Source: Bacteroidota bacterium (lineage in GTDB: Bacteria > Bacteroidota > Bacteroidia > UBA7662 > JAIXUI01). Taken from it: a stretch of DNA of 63,790 nt. Location: the NCBI GenBank assembly GCA_027484125.1, contig JAIXUI010000074.1, forward strand, positions 1-63,790. Reading direction: 5' to 3'. The notes under the pieces are model-generated. The model had not been told where the DNA came from and did not search any database. It worked only from the letters and a program-made list of their open reading frames with translations. The position numbers and the translations under genes were made by a program. Shown piece by piece: positions 37,448-57,626 of this stretch. Within the stretch, counting starts at the first letter, position 1. Each line of letters starts with the position of its first letter.

Positions 37448-37840
37448 CTATAAATTCAAGGCTATAGCCTCGGCAATTTGACTCATTTCCTCTGATGAAA
37501 GTTGGAGTTTAGGACGAGAAAAATCCAAATCAGAAGTAGAATTCATGGGCACCAAGTGTAGATGCGCATGAGGAACTTCAAACCCTAAAACAGCCTGTCC
37601 AACTCTTTTACAGTTGGTAACCTGTTTCATAGAACGTGCAATACGTGCAGCAAAAATCTGAAGTTCTCCTAAACGATGATCGGATAAATCGAAAAAGTAA
37701 TCTACTTCCTCTTTAGGCACCACCAAAGTATGGCCTTTAGCTAAAGGGTTAATATCTAAAAAGGCATAGAAATGCTCAGATTCTGCAACGGTGTAAGAAG
37801 GAATCTCACCAACGATAATCTTAGAGAAGATCGACGCCAT
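37448..37840 (-). CDS. HIT-family nucleotide-binding protein
   Basis: A 130-residue HIT hydrolase of the Hint type. The active-site motif is PHAHLHLVP (~residues 90-98), with FLDINPLAKGHTLVVPK upstream. It hydrolyses purine nucleotide phosphoramidates or similar compounds. Its ATG directly follows the greA stop (TAAATG), so it is translated with greA. Confidence 0.93.
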   Translation of the reverse strand: MASIFSKIIVGEIPSYTVAESEHFYAFLDINPLAKGHTLVVPKEEVDYFFDLSDHRLGELQIFAARIARSMKQVTNCKRVGQAVLGFEVPHAHLHLVPMNSTSDLDFSRPKLQLSSEEMSQIAEAIALNL

Positions 37841-38311
37841 TTATGCAGTGATATCTAAAATTTCAAAGCGCATTTTACCGGAAGGAACAGCAATTTCAGC
37901 GACATCGCCAACTTTGCAACCTAAAAACCCCTTACCAATAGGAGAACCAATAGAAATCTTACCCTTTTTCAAATCAGCTTCCTTCTCAGAAACCAAATGG
38001 TAAATCATTTCGGTACTATTGAGAAGATTTCTGACTTTAACCTTAGTATGAACCGTCACTTTGGAAGTGTCTATTTTAGATTCATCAAGGATACGAGCAT
38101 TGGCAATAAGCGTTTCGAGTTTGGCAATTTCCATCTCAAGCAGACCTTGTGCCTCCTTCGCTGCATCATATTCTGCGTTTTCAGAAAGATCACCCTTTTC
38201 ACGTGCCTCCTGAATTGCTCGAGCCATTTCTGCTCTTCCCTTTGTCTTTTTTTCGGTTAACTCGGCCTTCAATTTATCAAGACCTTCTTTTGTAAAATAC
38301 GATACGCTCAT
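37841..38311 (-). CDS. greA: Transcription elongation factor GreA
   Basis: A 156-residue factor that enters the RNA polymerase channel and restarts backtracked complexes. The N-terminal coiled coil carries the acidic tip EAREKGDLSENAEYDAAK; the C-terminal FKBP-like domain has SIGSPIGKGFLGCKVGD. The length is normal (~158). The ATG at 38311 lies 13 bases after the end of a strong terminator-like hairpin and U-run, so any transcript reaching greA must pass it (see findings). Confidence 0.96.
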   Translation of the reverse strand: MSVSYFTKEGLDKLKAELTEKKTKGRAEMARAIQEAREKGDLSENAEYDAAKEAQGLLEMEIAKLETLIANARILDESKIDTSKVTVHTKVKVRNLLNSTEMIYHLVSEKEADLKKGKISIGSPIGKGFLGCKVGDVAEIAVPSGKMRFEILDITA

Positions 38312-38324
38312 CCTAAACTTGATT

Positions 38325-38359
38325 AAAAAACAAGGAACGCCCTTTTAAGGGGGCGTTCC
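38325..38359 (-). terminator. Strong intrinsic terminator between the PorV-like gene and greA
   Basis: On the minus strand GGAACGCCC pairs with GGGCGTTCC (9 bp, 38359-38351 with 38342-38334) around an 8-base loop, followed by TTGTTTTTT (38333-38325). It ends the three-gene outer-membrane operon, but it also lies 13 bases before the greA ATG, in greA's direction of transcription. Confidence 0.9.
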
Positions 38360-38382: not shown

Positions 38383-39435
38383 TCAGAGGGTAATGCGTGC
38401 TCCGATACCGTAGGTTCCGTTAAATGGATCTGTATGTCTCCAAGAAAAGTCTAACCCAAACTTGCCACCTTTATCGTTGAATGGAATATCAACTGAAAAG
38501 CCAGCAGCATATCCCGTAAAAGCAGTAGCACGTGTTACACGATCATTGATTCCCTTTTCATAGTTGTAACCACCACGAAGAGCGAACCAAGATCCGAAGT
38601 TATATTCCAATCCAATACCAAACTGGTCATTAGTAAAGGAGTTAGAGGTGAAATTACCTGCAACTACTAACTTTTGAAGTTTAGTAAATGGAATGTCATA
38701 CTGAATACCAATATTCATCAGCGAAGGAATTTCAAAACGTTCAGCACGCTGAGACATGGTCAAACTCAAGCTTGAATTCTCAGGAGTAGCACGTCCGGAA
38801 AGACCATCACCAGCGAATCGCATTGGTGTTCCAACGTTGCGAATTGCAATACCAAATTTTAAACGATCGTCTTTACCGGTAACGTATTGGATACCCGCAT
38901 CAAAGGCAACTCCTTCGGAGCTTACCTCTGCAGTTGACTGAGAAATAAGACGAACAGTTACACCACCATAGATACGGTTAGAAAAAGTTCTAGCATAAGA
39001 TAATCCCATGTTAACCAAAGAAGGGGAGTAGAATCCAATTCCACCATCTGGGTTGTTCATATTGGTGATTTCGATATCACCCATATTCATGGACATTAAA
39101 CTAAAACCAATAACACTTGATTCGCCAATTCTTTGAGCGATACCAGCAGCGTTCAAACTTATTCCACTTCCTTCTAACCAGTTCGTACGAACCAATTGAA
39201 TTTCAGTGTTTTTTACGAAAGCAAGTCCAGCTACGTTGAAGCGTTCAGCCTCAATACCGCGGATACCCGCGGTATTGACGCCATACCAGCCAGAACTTCT
39301 GGACCAAGGATTAATGAGGAGTTCCGTTGCTCCGGCCTGACCAACACGGTCAGGGTTTCCGGCAAAGGAAGGAATCACCATCCCAGACAGAACTGCACCG
39401 AAAAGGAGGTGTTTCAGATTTTTGATTGTCATCAT
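38383..39435 (-). CDS. PorV/PorQ-type outer-membrane protein
   Basis: A 350-residue exported protein with signal peptide (MMTIKNLKHLLFGAVLSGMV, cleaved after FAG) and a beta-barrel like the T9SS shuttle and attachment proteins PorV and PorQ. Typical marks are the N-terminal GQAGATELLINPWSRSSGWY and the C-terminal GYNYEKGINDR ... FSVDIPFNDKGGKFGLDFSW. PorV carries T9SS cargo to the cell-surface attachment complex. This copy ends an operon with a TonB receptor and a giant exported protein, so it may be dedicated to that protein. Confidence 0.85.
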   Translation of the reverse strand: MMTIKNLKHLLFGAVLSGMVIPSFAGNPDRVGQAGATELLINPWSRSSGWYGVNTAGIRGIEAERFNVAGLAFVKNTEIQLVRTNWLEGSGISLNAAGIAQRIGESSVIGFSLMSMNMGDIEITNMNNPDGGIGFYSPSLVNMGLSYARTFSNRIYGGVTVRLISQSTAEVSSEGVAFDAGIQYVTGKDDRLKFGIAIRNVGTPMRFAGDGLSGRATPENSSLSLTMSQRAERFEIPSLMNIGIQYDIPFTKLQKLVVAGNFTSNSFTNDQFGIGLEYNFGSWFALRGGYNYEKGINDRVTRATAFTGYAAGFSVDIPFNDKGGKFGLDFSWRHTDPFNGTYGIGARITL

Positions 39436-39456
39436 AGGGCTGTCTGTGAAGGTTGA

Positions 39457-42400
39457 TTAGAAGGTATCAAGGTCAATAGGTCTCACAACACCGAACCATT
39501 TAACGGTTTTCTCACCGATACCTGGAGCATTAATATGGAAGATGTAGGCGCCAGAAGCGATAGGCACTCGCTTAGCGTTCAATAAATCCCAATCGATGCT
39601 TGTGGTTTCATCGTCTTTAGTAAGTACTCGAACTAAAGCACCGGAAGATGTGAAAATAGATACAGTACAACGACGTGGCAGGTTAGTAATTTTCACACGG
39701 TTGTCAATCTGGCTATTTTCATAACCTGATACTGAGTAGAATGGATTAGGAACAACCCTGATGATATCAAGTGCTCGTACTGCTGTAGGACGATCGAAGG
39801 TCTTTGGAGCAAAAGGAGTAGTGTTGATTTCATACAACGGATTGTTGTTATTCAAGGCAGGAGTTTGAGTAGCAAAAGCGGTGTAGCGCTTAGCTACACG
39901 AAGGTTTACTGTCAAGTCTGTAGTCAACAATTGCTGACCGGGAGTTGCAAATGGAACACTAACCCAAGCCACATTATTGTAGAGTTGTTTAACAACTGCA
40001 GAACCTTGCGTACCTGAGAATGGAGCACCTGTACCTGCGCCAGCAAATAAGAATCGCTTCAAGAATGCACCCTCATCGTACCTAGACTTCATTACGTAGA
40101 TGTAATGACGTCCACCAATTGGAAGAGTCCCTGTGCGGTTATCGAAAATGGTTGAAGTTGGATTCCAAAGCATGTCTCTACCACGTTCGCCAGAGAATTC
40201 AGATGCTTCACCAAAACAGATGTTCAAACGTTCACCGGTTTCCATGTTGATGGCATAGCCAGGGAACCACCCTTGGCCGATATCATTAGGATCAGAAAGC
40301 ACAGCACCTTCTTTATCGACTGAGCGACCAAGGCGTACACGACCTTTTGATTGGCCTCCTTCTGAGTTTAGCGGGTCACTTCCCATTTCTAACACCCAGC
40401 CTCTCGTCCAGTTTGCTTTGTTAGGGGTGAACACAATTTTCACCGAAGGAATATCACCCAAAGTCAAATCTGTTTGAGAAAGCGGAGCAGGGAAGCTAGG
40501 AAGTAATGAGCTTAAGGTAGGGTCTTGAGAATTTCTTCTTACAAAACGCATCGCTGACCAAGTACCATTAAGAATACCACTGAAATAGTTCTTGTCGTCA
40601 CCGCTAAGTGCACCTGTACCCGCACCATCTGGACCAGTAAGAATCCAGTCGAAGTTTGGACTATCACCTAGGAATTGAAGCCACTGGTTGGTATTATCAG
40701 CAAAAGCGAAATCAGAGAGCAATACGCCGTTTCTGTTATCATCTGGTGCTAAACCTGGATCAACTGCATTCAATATCGAAACAGAGATTCCGTAGCTCTT
40801 GAAAGTGCTGGTAAGTTCGTACATTCCTACTACCTGCTCAGAATTAGTGGAGATAGTGGTATCACTAAACACCGTGTCTTGGTCAGCAGTACCCGGGTTT
40901 AGAATCAACATCCAACGTGAATTATTGCTGATGGTATCCACTGTTGGGTTGCCAGGATTGTAAAGACGCAGCCAATGTTTACCAGGAATCACCAATTTAG
41001 GATCAACAATCTTCACATTTACAGGACCAAAACCTGGTTTGTAAACTGGGAAGAGGGCACGATTATCTGGGCTTGCAAGAATTTCTGAGATGGTAGAATC
41101 TGATAGGTCAAGAAGTTGATATCCATTACCGGTACCTTCTACACGACGAACGATTGGAGCATCGCCATAAGTAGAGTTAAGAATTAAACCATCTTTTTCA
41201 GGCGTATTGATGTGAGGAACACCAGTGTAAACAGAAATGTTGTTACGACCTGCAAAGAATGGAACAGCCTGTCCTTCCAAAGTAATTGGATTGTACTCTT
41301 TGTAGTTGTTGTATGAATAGGCAACAGCCATGTAGTAGTACTTCTTATGGTTAATCAAGATGTCGTTTCCAGTAGCAAACGCATCACGATTAAGGCGGAA
41401 GGTGGTTTTTACTCCTTGATCAGCACCATCAACTTCGATACGTGGGATAGGTTTATCCAAATCAGGATCGATGTAGTAGTTAATCAAACGATTCACACCG
41501 TCTTTAATATCACACTGGAATACAATTCTTGCACGGCTTGCGTCGCGAAGTTCACCAGTTGAAACATTAGGGCCAGACAATTGATAAACAATGAATCCTT
41601 GGAACTTGTAGCTAGCCGAATCAAGTTGTGCAGGAGTTGGATTAAAACCATAAACTGCTTTGATGATTGGGTCAACTTCTTTGTACTTCAATCCGAAGTT
41701 ATTGGAGGTAGGTTTGTAGGTCAAAGTAAAAATCAACTGACGGTCCATCTCTGTGATATTCATATCAGGAGCATCTGGACCATTAAGTGTTTGGAAACAG
41801 TTATCAAACAGCGCTTGAGCTTTAGAATCTGCACGAAGAAGCTGATTGAAAGAGCCTGTAGCACCGCCTGAAGAGGCACGTGCCCAAACAATACCGATGG
41901 TGATGTAGTTAACAGCACCCGGTTCCAAAGTAAATGGACCACCTGATTGAACAAAACGACGGTCAGCGGGTGCATTAGCAGCAGCTCCAGTACCAGGGAA
42001 AAGTTCTGTCCATGCAAATGGTACAGTACGCGGATTTTGAGCAGTACCACCAATTGACCAACCATACTGGAAGTCAGAGGCACCAGGGAACATCATGTCA
42101 GCCTCAAATACAGTAGAGCCTGTTGAACCTGGATAACCGTTTCCACCATAAACCATGCGGTTTCCATCTTTCCAGAAACCTGTCATGTAGTTATAGGCAT
42201 GAACCGCAGTAGAAGGGTTACCGATAGGTGAAGCGTCATTGTTGAAGTAGAGAAACTTCGTCATGATACAACGCTCTGTTTTCCCGATACCATCACAAAC
42301 AAACGTATCAATTTCATCTACACGACCATCACGGTCATTGTCTAAGCCGTCATTAGAGTCAGAGAAAGGTCCTTCAAAGAAGTCACATCCCACGGAGGGA

Positions 42401-43407
42401 GGATTGTCACCATAACCTTGAATACCTTCGTCACTGTTATCACCGTTGTAACAAATACCTAAACCACGAGGAACGTCACAACCCACAAAATCGTCAGCAG
42501 CATTTCCAAGGTCAGGGTCAACCCATTGGGCCATGAAACATGAATCTAAACGAAGGGTAGAACGGTTAATGATAGTGTGGAAATAAAAGGTCATGTTATT
42601 CAACTCATCGTTAGAAGCATACGCAAACGACTGAGTTTGAATTTCCATACCAATCTGAGAAGCACCAGAGCCAGAAACATTACCACGGTCATTGATTACA
42701 TTCCAGATGGATTGATCACCATTAATTCTTGGATAGTCACCCAAAGCTGGTTCGTAAACGTTAGGGTCACCACCAACATTCACGAATGGAGCAAGTGTTG
42801 GTGCTTGTCCTTGGCTTAAATCGCCATTGGCTGGCCAATCCAAGAAGACTTGAGGAGGAACATAACCAGGAGCTAAACTAGTTTGACCACCAGGAGCAAT
42901 AATGGTATTAGAACGGTGAGTTTCTACCATTGAACGCTCAACTTTCCAGTGCTTATCGAAGGTTAAGCAACTGGATGCATTGGTGGTTGCATTATTCACA
43001 TTCAAAGGGCCAGGCCAGTACCCAATACCAAGCACAGTACTTTGCCGATAAGTTTGGGCGGCAACTCGAAGAGTACCGGAGGTAAATCCTCCAATCCAAA
43101 CGGCACCTGCAAAAAGTGAACTAAGTCGAGGTTGGGTTGGGTCCGTAACTTTTGGAATTTCATAACGGCCAAGACCGGATGAACCCTGATCCCACCAATA
43201 ATCACCACCGCCGAGAATTAATGCCCTAACGTTGTTGACGTCTAGGAAAACTCTAGAGGTAGAAGGAGAACAGTTTGCGGCTCCACGCAATGCAGCTGCG
43301 CCTGGCAGTGTTCGCGCAGAGGCCGATAAATCTTCACGAGCCGAAGCCTGAACGTAAGCCAGGGCTACCAGCGCTAGAGATAAAAGGTATCGCTTCATGT
43401 ATCGCAT
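39457..43407 (-). CDS. Giant exported protein of the TonB/PorV operon
   Basis: A 1316-residue protein with signal peptide (MKRYLLSLALVALAYVQASA). No enzyme domain is recognised. It is rich in Asn, Asp, Gly and Ser, as extracellular proteins are. A stretch DSNDGLDNDRDGRVDEID (~residues 350-370) resembles a calcium-binding loop. The C-terminal ~100 residues (VVPNPFYSVSGYENSQIDNR ... SSGALVRVL ... SGAYIFHINA) look like the FlgD-like/T9SS C-terminal fold, though the terminal signal of a classic type A domain is not seen. It lies 10 bases after the TonB receptor and 21 before the PorV-like gene, so export by T9SS with that PorV is plausible. Two in-frame ATGs (43407, 43398) are possible starts. 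Confidence 0.75.
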   Translation of the reverse strand: MRYMKRYLLSLALVALAYVQASAREDLSASARTLPGAAALRGAANCSPSTSRVFLDVNNVRALILGGGDYWWDQGSSGLGRYEIPKVTDPTQPRLSSLFAGAVWIGGFTSGTLRVAAQTYRQSTVLGIGYWPGPLNVNNATTNASSCLTFDKHWKVERSMVETHRSNTIIAPGGQTSLAPGYVPPQVFLDWPANGDLSQGQAPTLAPFVNVGGDPNVYEPALGDYPRINGDQSIWNVINDRGNVSGSGASQIGMEIQTQSFAYASNDELNNMTFYFHTIINRSTLRLDSCFMAQWVDPDLGNAADDFVGCDVPRGLGICYNGDNSDEGIQGYGDNPPSVGCDFFEGPFSDSNDGLDNDRDGRVDEIDTFVCDGIGKTERCIMTKFLYFNNDASPIGNPSTAVHAYNYMTGFWKDGNRMVYGGNGYPGSTGSTVFEADMMFPGASDFQYGWSIGGTAQNPRTVPFAWTELFPGTGAAANAPADRRFVQSGGPFTLEPGAVNYITIGIVWARASSGGATGSFNQLLRADSKAQALFDNCFQTLNGPDAPDMNITEMDRQLIFTLTYKPTSNNFGLKYKEVDPIIKAVYGFNPTPAQLDSASYKFQGFIVYQLSGPNVSTGELRDASRARIVFQCDIKDGVNRLINYYIDPDLDKPIPRIEVDGADQGVKTTFRLNRDAFATGNDILINHKKYYYMAVAYSYNNYKEYNPITLEGQAVPFFAGRNNISVYTGVPHINTPEKDGLILNSTYGDAPIVRRVEGTGNGYQLLDLSDSTISEILASPDNRALFPVYKPGFGPVNVKIVDPKLVIPGKHWLRLYNPGNPTVDTISNNSRWMLILNPGTADQDTVFSDTTISTNSEQVVGMYELTSTFKSYGISVSILNAVDPGLAPDDNRNGVLLSDFAFADNTNQWLQFLGDSPNFDWILTGPDGAGTGALSGDDKNYFSGILNGTWSAMRFVRRNSQDPTLSSLLPSFPAPLSQTDLTLGDIPSVKIVFTPNKANWTRGWVLEMGSDPLNSEGGQSKGRVRLGRSVDKEGAVLSDPNDIGQGWFPGYAINMETGERLNICFGEASEFSGERGRDMLWNPTSTIFDNRTGTLPIGGRHYIYVMKSRYDEGAFLKRFLFAGAGTGAPFSGTQGSAVVKQLYNNVAWVSVPFATPGQQLLTTDLTVNLRVAKRYTAFATQTPALNNNNPLYEINTTPFAPKTFDRPTAVRALDIIRVVPNPFYSVSGYENSQIDNRVKITNLPRRCTVSIFTSSGALVRVLTKDDETTSIDWDLLNAKRVPIASGAYIFHINAPGIGEKTVKWFGVVRPIDLDTF

Positions 43408-43417
43408 GTGTTTTTTA

Positions 43418-46400
43418 TCAGAAGGTGAATCTTACGCCAATACGTGCTCTGCGTGGAAGTGCAAAGTTGTCCGGATTCTGCATTGACACTGTGTATAGGT
43501 CAATGAATGAAGCAGGATCCAACGTTCCGTTAAGCTGTTGAGCTCCAAGGTTAGAAGTAAGGAAGCCATCATCCATTGGATCCCCGGTATAGCGGTAAAC
43601 ACCCAATACGTTGCGGATATCAAACAGGTTAAGCACCTGGAGATAAACGTTAACGGTGGCCATTTTTGGACGATCTCCGGTTCCTTTACCGATTTTGAAA
43701 TCGATGTCTTTGTCAACACGTAGGTTAACACGCAATTGCCATGGAAGACGAGAACCGTTCAAAGTACCTTTCAGGGTTGTACGACCATCGATACCGCCTG
43801 CTACGTCTCCATCAGGAGTAACGAAGGTTTGACGTGAGAATGGAGTTCCAGAAATAGCGTTTGCAACAAAGTTGAAACCTACGTTCTGAAGCACTGGAAT
43901 TCCAAATGGGCGTGGACCATTGTAGTTTTTACCCTTTCCGAAACGGAAGTCGAAGGTTCCTACCAAACGGTGGCGAGCATCGAAGTTTAAAGGAAGTGGT
44001 GTACGTAAGTTGTCGATACCTGCTTGAATAATGTTAGCAGCTTGCTCTGGAGCAGAGCCAGTACCATCAGCAAACTGAAGGGTATAGGAACCGTTGAAAC
44101 GAATGTTTCCTGAACGACGCAAATCGTACGCAATGGTTAATCCTTTTACCGTACCGAAGTCAATGTTACCATAAGTACGGTAGTCAACTGGATAAGCGAA
44201 CGGACGGTTGATAATTTGAATCATATTGCGCAGTTCTCGGTAGAATGCAGAAATAGTTAACGCTGAACGGCTATTCAACTTCTGTTTGAAACCAAGTTCG
44301 TAATCAATAGTTTGCTCTGGGAGCAAAGATGGATTGTTAATAGTTCCACCTACGTTTCTCAGGTAATAGAAATCTGTTGGGTCGAAACGGAGGAAACCGG
44401 AAGGACGCTGGGTCAGTACATCGTAGTGTGCAAAGAAGAGCGCTTCATCAGAAATTGGGAATGAGAACGCCACACGAGGCATAAAGTTAATTTGTGGCTC
44501 GTAAGTGGTAAATGCATTGGCGCCGACATTTTGCTGACGTGGATCTTCTAGGTAGGGAGTAATTCTACCTGCAGCTGAGGCATTAGCTAACGCAGATGGG
44601 TTACGAATTTCTTGTCCATTGGCATTGAACCAAGTTTGGCCGCTGCGATATCCAAGAATGGTAGGAGTAGCTGCATTTACATCGTTCACATAAACAACAT
44701 AATCGTTGCCGATGTTGCCTGGGTGACGACCTCCATTAGCAGTATTTAAAGTACCCGCAACTTGACCGGCTGTTTTCGCAGGGAACAACAGGAACGGGTC
44801 TCTTAATACTGGCTGATTCGCATCAAAACGGTCAACACGTACACCGACACGGAAGACTAAATCATCAAAGTCAAATTTGTCCTCGATGAATCCTGCCATG
44901 TAAATAGGCGAGAATGGAGCGATGTTACGATTGGTAGTATCGGTAAAGAAGTCTAACTGACCAGGGCGACTAGTTAAGCGATCCCCTTTGTAGTCATAAC
45001 CAAAATAAGAAACAAAGCTTTGTCCTTCATTCAACAACTCATTAGGATTGAAGAAACTTACTTTAAGTTGTTCAGGATTTAATTTATCAATCTGTACAAT
45101 GTCAAGCCCCTGAACATTCATGCCCAAAGAGCTACGAAGGTTTCTATCAAAGGTTGATTGATTTGCTCCTACATATAGGCGATTGAAATAGATGGTGTCA
45201 TTGTACAGTCCGAATTCATCACGTGCATAAATAGGATTAGATAAATCCAATTCATTCAAGTGACGGTTCATCAAACCGCGTGCATGACCCCAAAGACCAA
45301 TACCTGAAGCGAATGGGTTCAAGCTATACCCACGATCGATGCGCTGGTCATACTCGAAACCGAACTTAATTGCATGTGACTTGATGTCAGCAGAAGCAAC
45401 ACCACTCACACGGAACATATCGTTATTGGAGTAAGAGTATCCGCCTGTCTGACGTCCACTGTTCCACCAAATACCATAAACAGAGCTAAGGCGAAGACCA
45501 TTGATGGTACCACCCAATTGCTGAATGTCGTTGAAGTTGGTTAGACGCTGATCTCCAAGTAAACTAAAGAACTGGCGATTGTAAGCAGTAAGAAGTGGGT
45601 CAAGATCCACTGGCTTGTAAGTAACCAAAGTATCACGGAAGCCAGACATAATGTTAGTCTGATTTTGGAAGATACCATCAACAGTAGCAGAATCTTGGCG
45701 GAAAGTTCTTTCTTGAAGCACATCAAATTCACCTAAATAACCATAACCAAAAGCATTGCGACCAAGATTTGCATCTTCTGTTCTGCTAGTAGTGTTGGTG
45801 TAGTCAAATTGAAGGGTATAGAAAGCATTCTTGATAATGGAGCTTGCGCTAGCGCCGTCGCCAGAGGTATTGGCATTGAAGCTTTGCTTAATACGGCCAT
45901 AAACCCGGAACGTTTGGTTCTCAAAATAGGGGTTGTTGGCAGAGTTAAACAAGCTGTAAGCACGAACGTAGCTGCGACCCCAAGTTCTGTCATAGTTACC
46001 GCCAAGTGTAAAAGTGAAGTTATCTGTGGGCTGGAAGTCGATTTTTCCTGCGAACGACATCCTATTGGTAGCAGCATTTGGACGAATGTTATCAAGGAAG
46101 AGGTCATTCTTACGCAAGAATTGCGCATTTTGAACAAATCCAGTTCCAAGAGGGGAACGACGAAGCGGATTGGCTTGTAAATCTGCTAATCTTCCAGGAT
46201 TTACTTGCCAAACACCGATTGCGGAAGGATCTCCATCCTGCTGAGTTTCCCACTCACCAGAAAGGAAGTAACCTAACACTGCTCTTTCGTTATCCTTTCC
46301 TTTGTTTTTAACCCAGAGGGGGCCTGTGATGTTAAGTGCTCCCAAATGATAACCATAAGGCTCAAGGAAAGCAGAACTCAACACTTCTGCACCACCGCTG

Positions 46401-47098
46401 AAGTTACGCGAAGGACCACGAGTAGTTACGTTGATTACCCCACCGGTAACGTCACCGTATTGAGCAGGTACACCACCGGTAATCACAGTAGTTTGCTCAA
46501 TGGCTGAGTTAGGGAGGTTGGTTGAACCGCGTACACGAATACCGTCAACGAAATACTCGGTAGCATCAGAACGTCCACCACGCATGTTAATAGCTCCACC
46601 TTCATCCGCTTGGAATACACCAGCAGACACGGCAGCAATTGAGTTAACATCGCGGGTAGCCATTTGAGCAATCTCTTCACGTGTTACCGTTTGACCTGTT
46701 GAAGTTTCGTCCTTCTGAATCAGAGGAACTTTGTAAGCTTCAACCGTCATCTCCTTGATAGCTACAGCACTGGAGGCTAGTTTGATATCCACAAAGACAC
46801 TCTTATCAGCGTAAACAACTACGCCTTTAATAGTCTTTGGAGAAAATCCAATGAATTTGACCTTCAGATCATACGTTCCCGGAGGAAGAGAACTGAATTT
46901 ATAGCGTCCATCAGCATCGGTGGTTGCCCCACCTTTAATGGCGCCTTCGCGCTCCAAAATCACATTTGCAAATGCGATGCCCTCTTTTTTGGCTTCATCG
47001 AGTACCTTTCCTTGAAGGACGCCGGTACCCGATTGCGCCCAAGCGCCCATCAGGGTGAAGAGGAACAGGAGCACACTCAGGTAGAGTTTTTTCAACAT
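43418..47098 (-). CDS. Large TonB-dependent outer-membrane receptor
   Basis: A 1226-residue receptor with signal peptide MLKKLYLSVLLFLFTLMGAW. Residues ~25-115 form a carboxypeptidase-regulatory-like beta-sandwich (GVLQGKVLDEAKKEGIAFAN ... LPPGTYDLKVKFIGFSPKTI). The plug domain follows (~residues 130-240: INMRGGRSDATEYFVDGIRV; VPAQYGDVTGGVINVTTRG), and the rest is a 22-strand-type barrel. It imports or exports a large or scarce substrate using TonB energy; no SusD partner is next to it, so it is not a standard polysaccharide-utilisation pair. Instead it is followed by a giant exported protein and a PorV-like protein. The only sizeable spacer is upstream (47099-47338). Confidence 0.93.
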   Translation of the reverse strand: MLKKLYLSVLLFLFTLMGAWAQSGTGVLQGKVLDEAKKEGIAFANVILEREGAIKGGATTDADGRYKFSSLPPGTYDLKVKFIGFSPKTIKGVVVYADKSVFVDIKLASSAVAIKEMTVEAYKVPLIQKDETSTGQTVTREEIAQMATRDVNSIAAVSAGVFQADEGGAINMRGGRSDATEYFVDGIRVRGSTNLPNSAIEQTTVITGGVPAQYGDVTGGVINVTTRGPSRNFSGGAEVLSSAFLEPYGYHLGALNITGPLWVKNKGKDNERAVLGYFLSGEWETQQDGDPSAIGVWQVNPGRLADLQANPLRRSPLGTGFVQNAQFLRKNDLFLDNIRPNAATNRMSFAGKIDFQPTDNFTFTLGGNYDRTWGRSYVRAYSLFNSANNPYFENQTFRVYGRIKQSFNANTSGDGASASSIIKNAFYTLQFDYTNTTSRTEDANLGRNAFGYGYLGEFDVLQERTFRQDSATVDGIFQNQTNIMSGFRDTLVTYKPVDLDPLLTAYNRQFFSLLGDQRLTNFNDIQQLGGTINGLRLSSVYGIWWNSGRQTGGYSYSNNDMFRVSGVASADIKSHAIKFGFEYDQRIDRGYSLNPFASGIGLWGHARGLMNRHLNELDLSNPIYARDEFGLYNDTIYFNRLYVGANQSTFDRNLRSSLGMNVQGLDIVQIDKLNPEQLKVSFFNPNELLNEGQSFVSYFGYDYKGDRLTSRPGQLDFFTDTTNRNIAPFSPIYMAGFIEDKFDFDDLVFRVGVRVDRFDANQPVLRDPFLLFPAKTAGQVAGTLNTANGGRHPGNIGNDYVVYVNDVNAATPTILGYRSGQTWFNANGQEIRNPSALANASAAGRITPYLEDPRQQNVGANAFTTYEPQINFMPRVAFSFPISDEALFFAHYDVLTQRPSGFLRFDPTDFYYLRNVGGTINNPSLLPEQTIDYELGFKQKLNSRSALTISAFYRELRNMIQIINRPFAYPVDYRTYGNIDFGTVKGLTIAYDLRRSGNIRFNGSYTLQFADGTGSAPEQAANIIQAGIDNLRTPLPLNFDARHRLVGTFDFRFGKGKNYNGPRPFGIPVLQNVGFNFVANAISGTPFSRQTFVTPDGDVAGGIDGRTTLKGTLNGSRLPWQLRVNLRVDKDIDFKIGKGTGDRPKMATVNVYLQVLNLFDIRNVLGVYRYTGDPMDDGFLTSNLGAQQLNGTLDPASFIDLYTVSMQNPDNFALPRRARIGVRFTF

Positions 47099-55698: not shown

Positions 55699-56691
55699 TT
55701 AGAAAATACTTGCACTAACAGTCAGGCGGTGAATCATCCCCAATCTGTCGCGGTTATTGAATCCGTAATCAAAACGGAGGCGACCAAAACGGCGTTTGGT
55801 TTGAAGACCGATTCCTGCAGCGGGAATAGATTGTTCCTGAACTCCAAACTCATAGCCACTGCGTAGAAAAAGGATGTCTCTCCAGCTATATTCTGCGCCT
55901 ATACCGAATGTTTCACTGTTATCGGTTGGGTGGTTGAGCTGGAGGATTCCGGTGAGCTTATGGTCTTCTTTCTTGATAACATCATAAGCGTATCCAATGC
56001 GGAAAATCGCCGGAACTGCCATATCCTCGAAGGAGGATGCTTGGGTTTCACCATTCAATCGCAACCACTTGAATTCTCCTTCAGGGCTCACATTAAACCC
56101 GAAGTTGGTAATGGTTACAGCGAAACGCATGCGTTTTTCAGGGATGTTATAGGTTAAACCTAAGTCGAAGAGTCCATTTTGTGCGGCAGCAGAAGCGATG
56201 GCTTCTCTGGCATATTTACCAGTAATCCCAAAGCTAAAATTTTCGGTGAGCTGCCTGGCGTAGGTTAGTCCTAACAGAAGGCTATTAGCGGTAAACGTTC
56301 TTCCCGTTCCAAAAGGCTGAAACTCTGTGGTTTCTTTCATCTCACCTGAGCTTAAGCTAATGATTTGAACCCCCCAAAGGCTTTGACCGGAACGAATAAC
56401 CAGACCCCCATATTGCAGGCCTATTCCGGCAAAATAGCGGGTATAGCCCAGTTGAAAGTGCACTTTTTGGGTATCTAAGCCAGTGATTCCGGCGGGATTC
56501 CAGTAGAGCGAGGCCACATCATTAGCTTGGGCAATGTAATTACCGGCTAAGGAAGCGGCTCGTGCATCGGGCCCGATTTTCAGAAATTGCATTCCGGTTG
56601 TTGCCACACGCGAACTGCCATAATCTGGCAGTAGCTGTGCGGAAACCGTCCCGGCAGTTAAGAAGAGCAGAAGTACAATCAGGCTACGCAT
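55699..56691 (-). CDS. Second PorV/PorQ-type outer-membrane protein
   Basis: A 330-residue exported beta-barrel. The start at 56691 (MRSLIVLLLFLTAGTVSAQ) is a clear signal peptide; a much longer in-frame extension to 56892 would overlap the glycosyltransferase gene and is rejected. GMQFLKIGPDARAASLAGNY (~residue 35) is the family's characteristic N-terminal segment, as is ANDVASLYWNPAGI. It is followed by an NHL lipoprotein and, further on, TerC. Confidence 0.88.
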   Translation of the reverse strand: MRSLIVLLLFLTAGTVSAQLLPDYGSSRVATTGMQFLKIGPDARAASLAGNYIAQANDVASLYWNPAGITGLDTQKVHFQLGYTRYFAGIGLQYGGLVIRSGQSLWGVQIISLSSGEMKETTEFQPFGTGRTFTANSLLLGLTYARQLTENFSFGITGKYAREAIASAAAQNGLFDLGLTYNIPEKRMRFAVTITNFGFNVSPEGEFKWLRLNGETQASSFEDMAVPAIFRIGYAYDVIKKEDHKLTGILQLNHPTDNSETFGIGAEYSWRDILFLRSGYEFGVQEQSIPAAGIGLQTKRRFGRLRFDYGFNNRDRLGMIHRLTVSASIF

Positions 56692-56780
56692 GCGTAAAAA
56701 GCGGTGCAAATTACGGACAATCCTTCGAACGCGCGGCCTTTCTGCCGGATATTCACAGTAATACAAAATAGAATTAGCGG

Positions 56781-57626
56781 TTAGACCTTTAAAAAAACAT
56801 AATGGCGAAGGAAATACCAGAGGAAAACAGGGTGGGTATGCCGGAGCGATAGTTTCGCTCCTTGCATGAATACAGACCAAGCCAATGGCCAAAAGTTACG
56901 GGCTTCTACCGCAAGAAACCTTCCTCCTCTGCACAAATAGCGGTACCTGATGAGGCTGCTCTTTCTCGTTTTCTTTTCTAGAACCGACCAACCTTGCCGC
57001 ATCACCAAGGGTAGGATATGGATTTGAAGTCCCAATTTGCCCAGCTTATGACAAAAAGAAATGTCTGACCAATCCAACTCAATGCGCTCTGTGTAGCCAC
57101 CTGCACGTTCGAATGCTGAAAGGCTTACCATCAAACCTGAGTTAATGACACTTACTTCGTGAAGTGGATAACATTCGGCTTGTAAGGTGATGTCAGGGTA
57201 GTGACGGGTTGAACTTCCTTCTTTAAACAAACAAGGGGAGAAAAAAGCGTAACCACCTAGCACATATAAGGCAACTGCATCAACATTCGGCTGTGCCTGA
57301 AGTTTATCGGCATAATATTGGCCGGCCTCCGGTGGAAAGTTGGAATCCTGATCGAGTAACAGCAAGTGGGAATAACCCTTTTTTTTTGCTTCTGAAGCGG
57401 CAAAATTGTAGGCTACCGATAGCCCGGGATTGTGTTGAAAATGAAAATAATGAAGGCGTTTCCCAGCCAATTGATTAGGAATAGCTTGTGATTGAGGACT
57501 ATTATCAATGACCAACACTTCCTCCAATTCATTCCAAGACTCAATCAAGGTTTGCCAGGTTCTGGAGGCTTCCAGCTTGGTTTGATAGAGCACCAGAACA
57601 GGTAGCGGAAGAGTGATTTTGCTCAT
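56781..57626 (-). CDS. Family 2 glycosyltransferase (rhamnosyltransferase-like)
   Basis: A 281-residue cytoplasmic protein with GT-A core. EVLVIDNSPQSQAIPNQL, FQHNPGLSVAYNFAA and LLLLDQDSNFPPEAG contain the nucleotide-sugar site. GLMVSLSAFERAGGYTERIE matches bacterial rhamnosyltransferase-type enzymes. It adds a sugar to a surface glycan; the sugar is not known. The start overlaps the methyltransferase stop (ATGA, 57623-57626). Confidence 0.85.
   Translation of the reverse strand: MSKITLPLPVLVLYQTKLEASRTWQTLIESWNELEEVLVIDNSPQSQAIPNQLAGKRLHYFHFQHNPGLSVAYNFAASEAKKKGYSHLLLLDQDSNFPPEAGQYYADKLQAQPNVDAVALYVLGGYAFFSPCLFKEGSSTRHYPDITLQAECYPLHEVSVINSGLMVSLSAFERAGGYTERIELDWSDISFCHKLGKLGLQIHILPLVMRQGWSVLEKKTRKSSLIRYRYLCRGGRFLAVEARNFWPLAWSVFMQGAKLSLRHTHPVFLWYFLRHYVFLKV

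Follow-up and report, generated by a model that had tools for sequence, protein, structure and literature searches.

In the 63,790-nucleotide window, i.e., the whole stretch of Bacteroidota DNA analysed here, we identified a trio of genes encoding a TonB-dependent receptor, a giant exported protein, and a PorV/PorQ-family outer-membrane barrel. On balance, we lean towards a single cell-surface transport complex formed by these products, in which the giant is delivered by the T9SS and held by its own barrel. Within this model, there is good support for T9SS export of the giant and for a partnership of the three genes. Co-variation of the giant's N-region with the receptor, restriction of the giant to T9SS-bearing genomes, and a T9SS-type export domain are the parts backed by data, while retention of the C-terminal domain (CTD) on the trio barrel, physical contact of the partners, and a function in uptake would follow by inference.

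Organization of the Locus

All three genes are located on the minus strand. The receptor gene (43418..47098, 1226 aa), an ORF with Pfam domains CarboxypepD_reg and Plug, is followed after 10 bp by the gene for the giant (39457..43407, 1316 aa), for which no Pfam family was found and which is our proposed T9SS-delivered extracellular partner, and after a further 21 bp by the barrel gene (38383..39435, 350 aa), for whose product we propose a dedicated role in shuttling and anchoring the giant. A hairpin search revealed an intrinsic terminator-like structure closing the trio (38334..38359, minus strand), which reads from 38359 to 38334 with 9 pairs (7 G-C) followed by TTGTTTTTT and lies between the barrel gene and greA. 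Terminator-like sites were overall not enriched (8 vs. 9.9 in shuffles); the hairpin of the trio was the strongest among them and is located at a gene end. Downstream, greA (37841..38311, minus strand), which served as a marker of vertical inheritance, and a HIT-family gene (37448..37840, minus strand) are conserved neighbours in the class, both outside the proposed complex. No SusD was found in the trio, and the sole SusD_RagB match of the genome lies on a different contig. Thus, the gene sizes, both gaps, the terminator after the third gene, and the absence of a SusD-like gene by Pfam were all as given in the original prediction.

Elsewhere in the window, another PorV/PorQ-family protein is encoded at 55699-56892 (minus strand), scoring 198 bits against the family cut-off of 90 and lying below the cut-offs for PorV and PorQ. 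It adjoins a glycosyltransferase gene and a gene for a 408-aa protein without an NCBIfam family.

Receptor and Barrel

The receptor displays a CarboxypepD_reg domain (residues 28-107; 46778..47017, minus strand; E 4.7e-17) and a Plug domain (residues 130-221; 46436..46711, minus strand; E 7.1e-9). Plug and preceding segment are conserved as in importers, and Gln22, after the signal peptide, is invariant in the receptors. The Plug domain together with TonB in the host genome (TonB_C in three genes) identifies a TonB-dependent receptor. No SusC/RagA model was found among the NCBIfam matches of 34 receptors (E 1e-5).

The barrel passes the PorV/PorQ family model NF033709 (136 bits, cut-off 90), and its family profile matches the solved PorV structure 6h3i (E 1.3e-17). 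It remained below the equivalog cut-offs for PorV (68 vs. 250 bits) and PorQ (72 vs. 220 bits), and also failed the PorV2 model. Since the host PorU gene has a PorV-family gene of its own immediately downstream, the trio barrel is extra to the canonical PorV.

The Giant Exported Protein

The giant starts with a Sec-type signal peptide (about residues 1-23; 43339..43407, minus strand), read off the sequence and its homologues and lacking a lipobox. It is followed by a conserved N-region (residues 46-735; 41203..43272, minus strand) and a beta-rich middle region of lower conservation (residues 736-1205; 39793..41202, minus strand). While single-sequence searches against the PDB were uninformative, so that profiles and structure models were required, the predicted structures of both halves were confident (mean pLDDT 87 and 86). 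The N-region showed a weak fold match to GH94/GH116-type proteins (TM 0.17-0.25), which seems limited to beta-sandwich parts and in which no binding site was seen; a glycan may be its ligand. An enzyme role was rejected based on this low likeness and the lack of an enzyme family, and the statement that the giant carries no recognised enzyme domain held in the Pfam search. We also rejected a lipoprotein lid, as the giant has no lipobox and its invariant Cys46 lies about 20 residues past the signal peptide. At residues 350-368 (42304-42360), the giant has an acidic stretch, DSNDGLDNDRDGRVDEID, reminiscent of thrombospondin type 3 calcium-binding loops and partly kept among homologues.

The end of the protein comprises a PorZ/PorU-like T9SS CTD (residues 1213-1304; 39496..39771, minus strand) with an invariant Lys1303 and a conserved C-terminal extension, FGVVRPIDLDTF (residues 1305-1316; 39460..39495, minus strand). 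A T9SS-type domain at the end of the giant, as implied by the idea that the PorV-like protein serves it, was borne out by structure prediction and Foldseek, which ranked the PorZ export domain best (E 6.5e-6), then the RemZ CTD in the T9SS translocon, with weaker matches to PorU and RgpB. Among 39 giant homologues, the CTD matched the PorZ model in 38, the general type A model in 36, and the PorU model in 29. Fold and motifs, including the invariant lysine, match type A domains, but the window giant itself, with its end extended past the domain, stayed below the cut-off of TIGR04183 (17 vs. 23 bits). It is not a PorZ as a whole protein, the CTD alone matching the PorZ model (21-23 bits, cut-off 260). 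Past Lys1303, giants run on to a conserved LDxF end, e.g., RPIDLDSF, and distant giants of the same type terminate in QILDRF.

PorU and PorZ keep their CTD after export, which stays bound to PorV and PorQ, respectively, and it was suggested that cognate PorV-like barrels shield the CTD from cleavage (PMC10202324). By analogy with these closest relatives of its domain, the CTD of the giant would likewise not be removed. Experiments in P. gingivalis indicated that a C-terminal extension of the CTD does not block T9SS export (PMC11285876). Related genomes also encode N-region paralogues that are not part of a trio, and all ten tested possessed canonical type A domains (36-55 bits, cut-off 23) that, unlike in the giant, extend to the protein end. 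No trio-type receptor or barrel genes were found near these stand-alone paralogues in the stretches examined. This comparison thus indicates a general sorting domain where the N-region occurs alone and a special C-terminus where it has its own barrel.

Link to the T9SS

With SprA and PorU, the latter accompanied by a PorV of its own, the host genome encodes a T9SS, and it also has TonB. Among 392 genomes of the phylum, the SprA model matched in 318 and the giant profile in 237 (host excluded), the latter count referring to the profile and not to the intact trio, as many weak matches cover the CTD alone, and ignoring kinship. Occurrence of the trio in T9SS-lacking genomes, which the original prediction had posed against itself, was not observed, as none of the 237 genomes with a giant match was without sprA. 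The giant is no core part of the T9SS, as its profile found nothing in 81 of the genomes with SprA.

Conservation of the Trio

Most related genomes carry a homologue of the giant (51 of 60, or 47 of 53 when those of good quality are counted), and 38 full-length homologues shared 38-54% identity with the window giant. The order receptor, giant, PorV-like protein, greA, and HIT is repeated, with strand conserved, across nearly all of about 40 families of the class. In named genome records, 70 of 80 loci displayed the full receptor-giant-barrel order, likewise with strand conserved, 59 of them with greA and HIT, five with greA only, and six with neither detected. With this order, the greA-linked trio seems to be inherited vertically rather than to result from chance.

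Distant members of the phylum retain the trio without greA. Searching separately for receptor, CTD, and barrel in six whole distant genomes revealed 36 ordered trios, while 0.07 were expected with barrels placed at random. Their central proteins mostly share little beyond the CTD with the giant, and a Pfam family for the body was found in none of the 19 tested. Giant-type trios mostly carry the extended tail, while other trios end like GKFAIIK. Extended-type barrels lie nearer to each other than to the remaining barrels (mean distance 0.55 vs. 0.77). Beyond the original prediction, the trio therefore emerges as a phylum-wide module, often present in multiple copies, with differing central proteins. 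Tentatively, and at slightly less than an even chance, we would regard it as a phylum-wide class of TonB uptake complexes, of which a genome may hold about ten diverged copies at most, each with a T9SS-delivered ligand-binding subunit clamped by its own PorV-family barrel.

Several deviating arrangements were also seen. Some giants are solitary or tandem-amplified with no receptor or barrel adjacent, and part of those genomes also hold a trio. Loci L159, L163, L165, and L205 harbored tandem giants, up to four, near one barrel or none, those of L205 having nearly identical CTDs. Second giant-like genes were located near a complete trio in L091 (15512-19624) and L117 (15363-17542), the product in L091 ending in KWFGSRYQE without an LDxF tail. 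A diverged trio without greA is carried by plasmid pRMAR01 of Rhodothermus marinus DSM 4252 (L036, 8944-16086), with type III-A CRISPR genes on one side and a peptidoglycan-recognition gene on the other. The central protein of this trio also lacks the LDxF tail. In the distant genomes of L202, L215, and L216, we identified a second recurring arrangement, which starts with an exported protein (about 710-920 aa) whose CTD is similar and continues, after one or two other genes, with a TonB receptor and a PorV-family gene.

Co-variation of the Partners

In a Bacteroidia set of 77 trios, for which GreA served as control, the receptor tracked the N-region (0.49, size-matched) more closely than the CTD (0.19) in 100 of 100 resamples, and for the barrel the CTD (0.21) outweighed the N-region (0.08) in 90 of 100; these figures, and those below, show partnership and not contact, GreA being a short control and linked genes sharing their history. 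In five multi-copy genomes with 33 trios, the distances of the parts correlated with r 0.74-0.90, compared to 0.03-0.06 when partners were shuffled within genomes. In 74 of 132 cases, against 1.0 expected under independence, the four parts agreed in their choice of a partner trio from another genome. With the rest controlled for, the link between body and receptor was strongest in these 33 distant trios (0.52), and that between barrel and CTD was near zero (0.04). Because of this low partial correlation, contact between barrel and CTD is drawn more from the PorQ/PorZ analogy than from co-variation, and joint inheritance explains most of the weak barrel-CTD signal. Altogether, co-variation and conserved order support the proposal that giant and PorV-like protein go together, and that receptor, giant, and barrel behave as one unit.

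Proposed Function and Alternative Explanations

In the complex that we propose, the giant would be synthesised with a Sec signal peptide and then be exported across the outer membrane by the T9SS translocon via its CTD. The PorV-family barrel encoded next to it would take it over with the CTD uncleaved and retain it at the surface, as PorQ does with PorZ, so that the N-region could dock on the TonB receptor as a ligand-capturing partner or lid, similar to a SusD or BtuG lipoprotein. The original prediction had placed the function in uptake or assembly "rather than nutrient import". This restriction found no support, as a TonB receptor with a conserved plug and a co-varying surface protein most resembles SusCD and BtuB-BtuG.

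Three other explanations were considered. The receptor might help to export, fold, or mount the giant, with no nutrient import and with a structural or adhesive surface protein as the product. In Myxococcus, the TonB transporter Oar reportedly acts in PopC secretion, and a role of this kind would suit three genes that are seldom apart, a receptor with CarboxypepD_reg and no SusC model among its matches, and those loci in which several giants share one receptor and one barrel. However, export is already covered by the T9SS, the N-region paralogues with type A domains do without an adjoining receptor, and the importer-like conservation of plug and preceding segment also makes this reading unlikely. 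We consider it less likely still that the trio is a machine for surface processing or envelope assembly, in which giant and barrel handle a lipid or glycan like PorZ-PorQ, with sensing or recycling of a component as the task of the receptor. While the nearest relatives of the CTD, PorZ and PorU, are both parts of the T9SS attachment complex, and the mostly single, greA-linked, vertically inherited locus in the class is what a housekeeping part would show, the likeness to PorZ is confined to the CTD with a differing body, and multiple copies with differing bodies per distant genome suit varied ligands better than one task.

Finally, the giant could be ordinary T9SS cargo, released or LPS-attached after cleavage, with a generic PorV paralogue as barrel and genes that are merely co-transcribed. 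The close spacing, the terminator after the third gene, and the T9SS-type CTD would fit. We nevertheless regard this as very improbable, given a gene order held across the phylum in many copies, within-genome co-variation of partners far exceeding shuffles, a CTD unlike that of the ordinary paralogues, and a canonical PorV already present beside PorU.

Comparison with Known Systems

SusCD and BtuB-BtuG combine a TonB transporter with a surface lipoprotein lid (PMC7782687, PMC10404256). As in these systems, the trio receptor is encoded beside a co-varying partner (for which a surface location is proposed) and occurs in many diverged copies in some lineages. In contrast, the partner is T9SS-type cargo and neither a SusD nor a lipoprotein, a PorV-family barrel is included, and the receptor matches include no SusC model. 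With no SusC/RagA-type receptor match and no SusD-family lipoprotein partner, the trio is thus not a member of SusCD. A SusCD-like mode of working, with the partner closing over the receptor and capturing the ligand, may be assumed by analogy, the co-variation of N-region and receptor being the trio's own pointer to it.

Similar to PorZ-PorQ and PorU-PorV (PMC10202324), a large exported protein with a PorZ/PorU-like CTD is paired with a PorV/PorQ-family barrel, but the body is unrelated by model, the CTD has a conserved LDxF tail, the barrel scores too low for PorV or PorQ proper, and the set invariably includes a TonB receptor. The linkage of a T9SS cargo gene to its own PorV-like kind of barrel is shared with type B cargo and its cognate PorP/SprF barrel (PMC12618676, PMC9143113), though the domain of the trio is type-A-like, its barrel is of the PorV family, and a TonB receptor is included. 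With the Bacteroidota BAM and its extracellular canopy (PMC12611786, PMC12578637), the trio would share the character of an outer-membrane machine with large extracellular parts (proposed for the trio) that is spread over a wider group of phyla; unlike BAM, it tracks SprA, and many T9SS-bearing genomes are without it. No BAM chains were found among the PDB matches of the trio's three profiles, and subunits of the Bacteroidota BAM were rejected as candidates, since the described subunits also differ.

A search of the open-access literature revealed no description of the trio. Judging from families with absent or weak matches, it is probably missing from the well-studied genera, and this would account for its having been overlooked. 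The trio offers a direct test of the idea that cognate barrels protect the CTD (PMC10202324). If our model is true, T9SS export and TonB-driven import, which have been studied apart, would be united in one surface complex, and many PorV paralogues without an assigned function, as well as large exported proteins without a Pfam family, would gain a role. The trio would then represent a second, lipoprotein-independent solution to the job of SusCD, with the T9SS standing in for the lipoprotein route.
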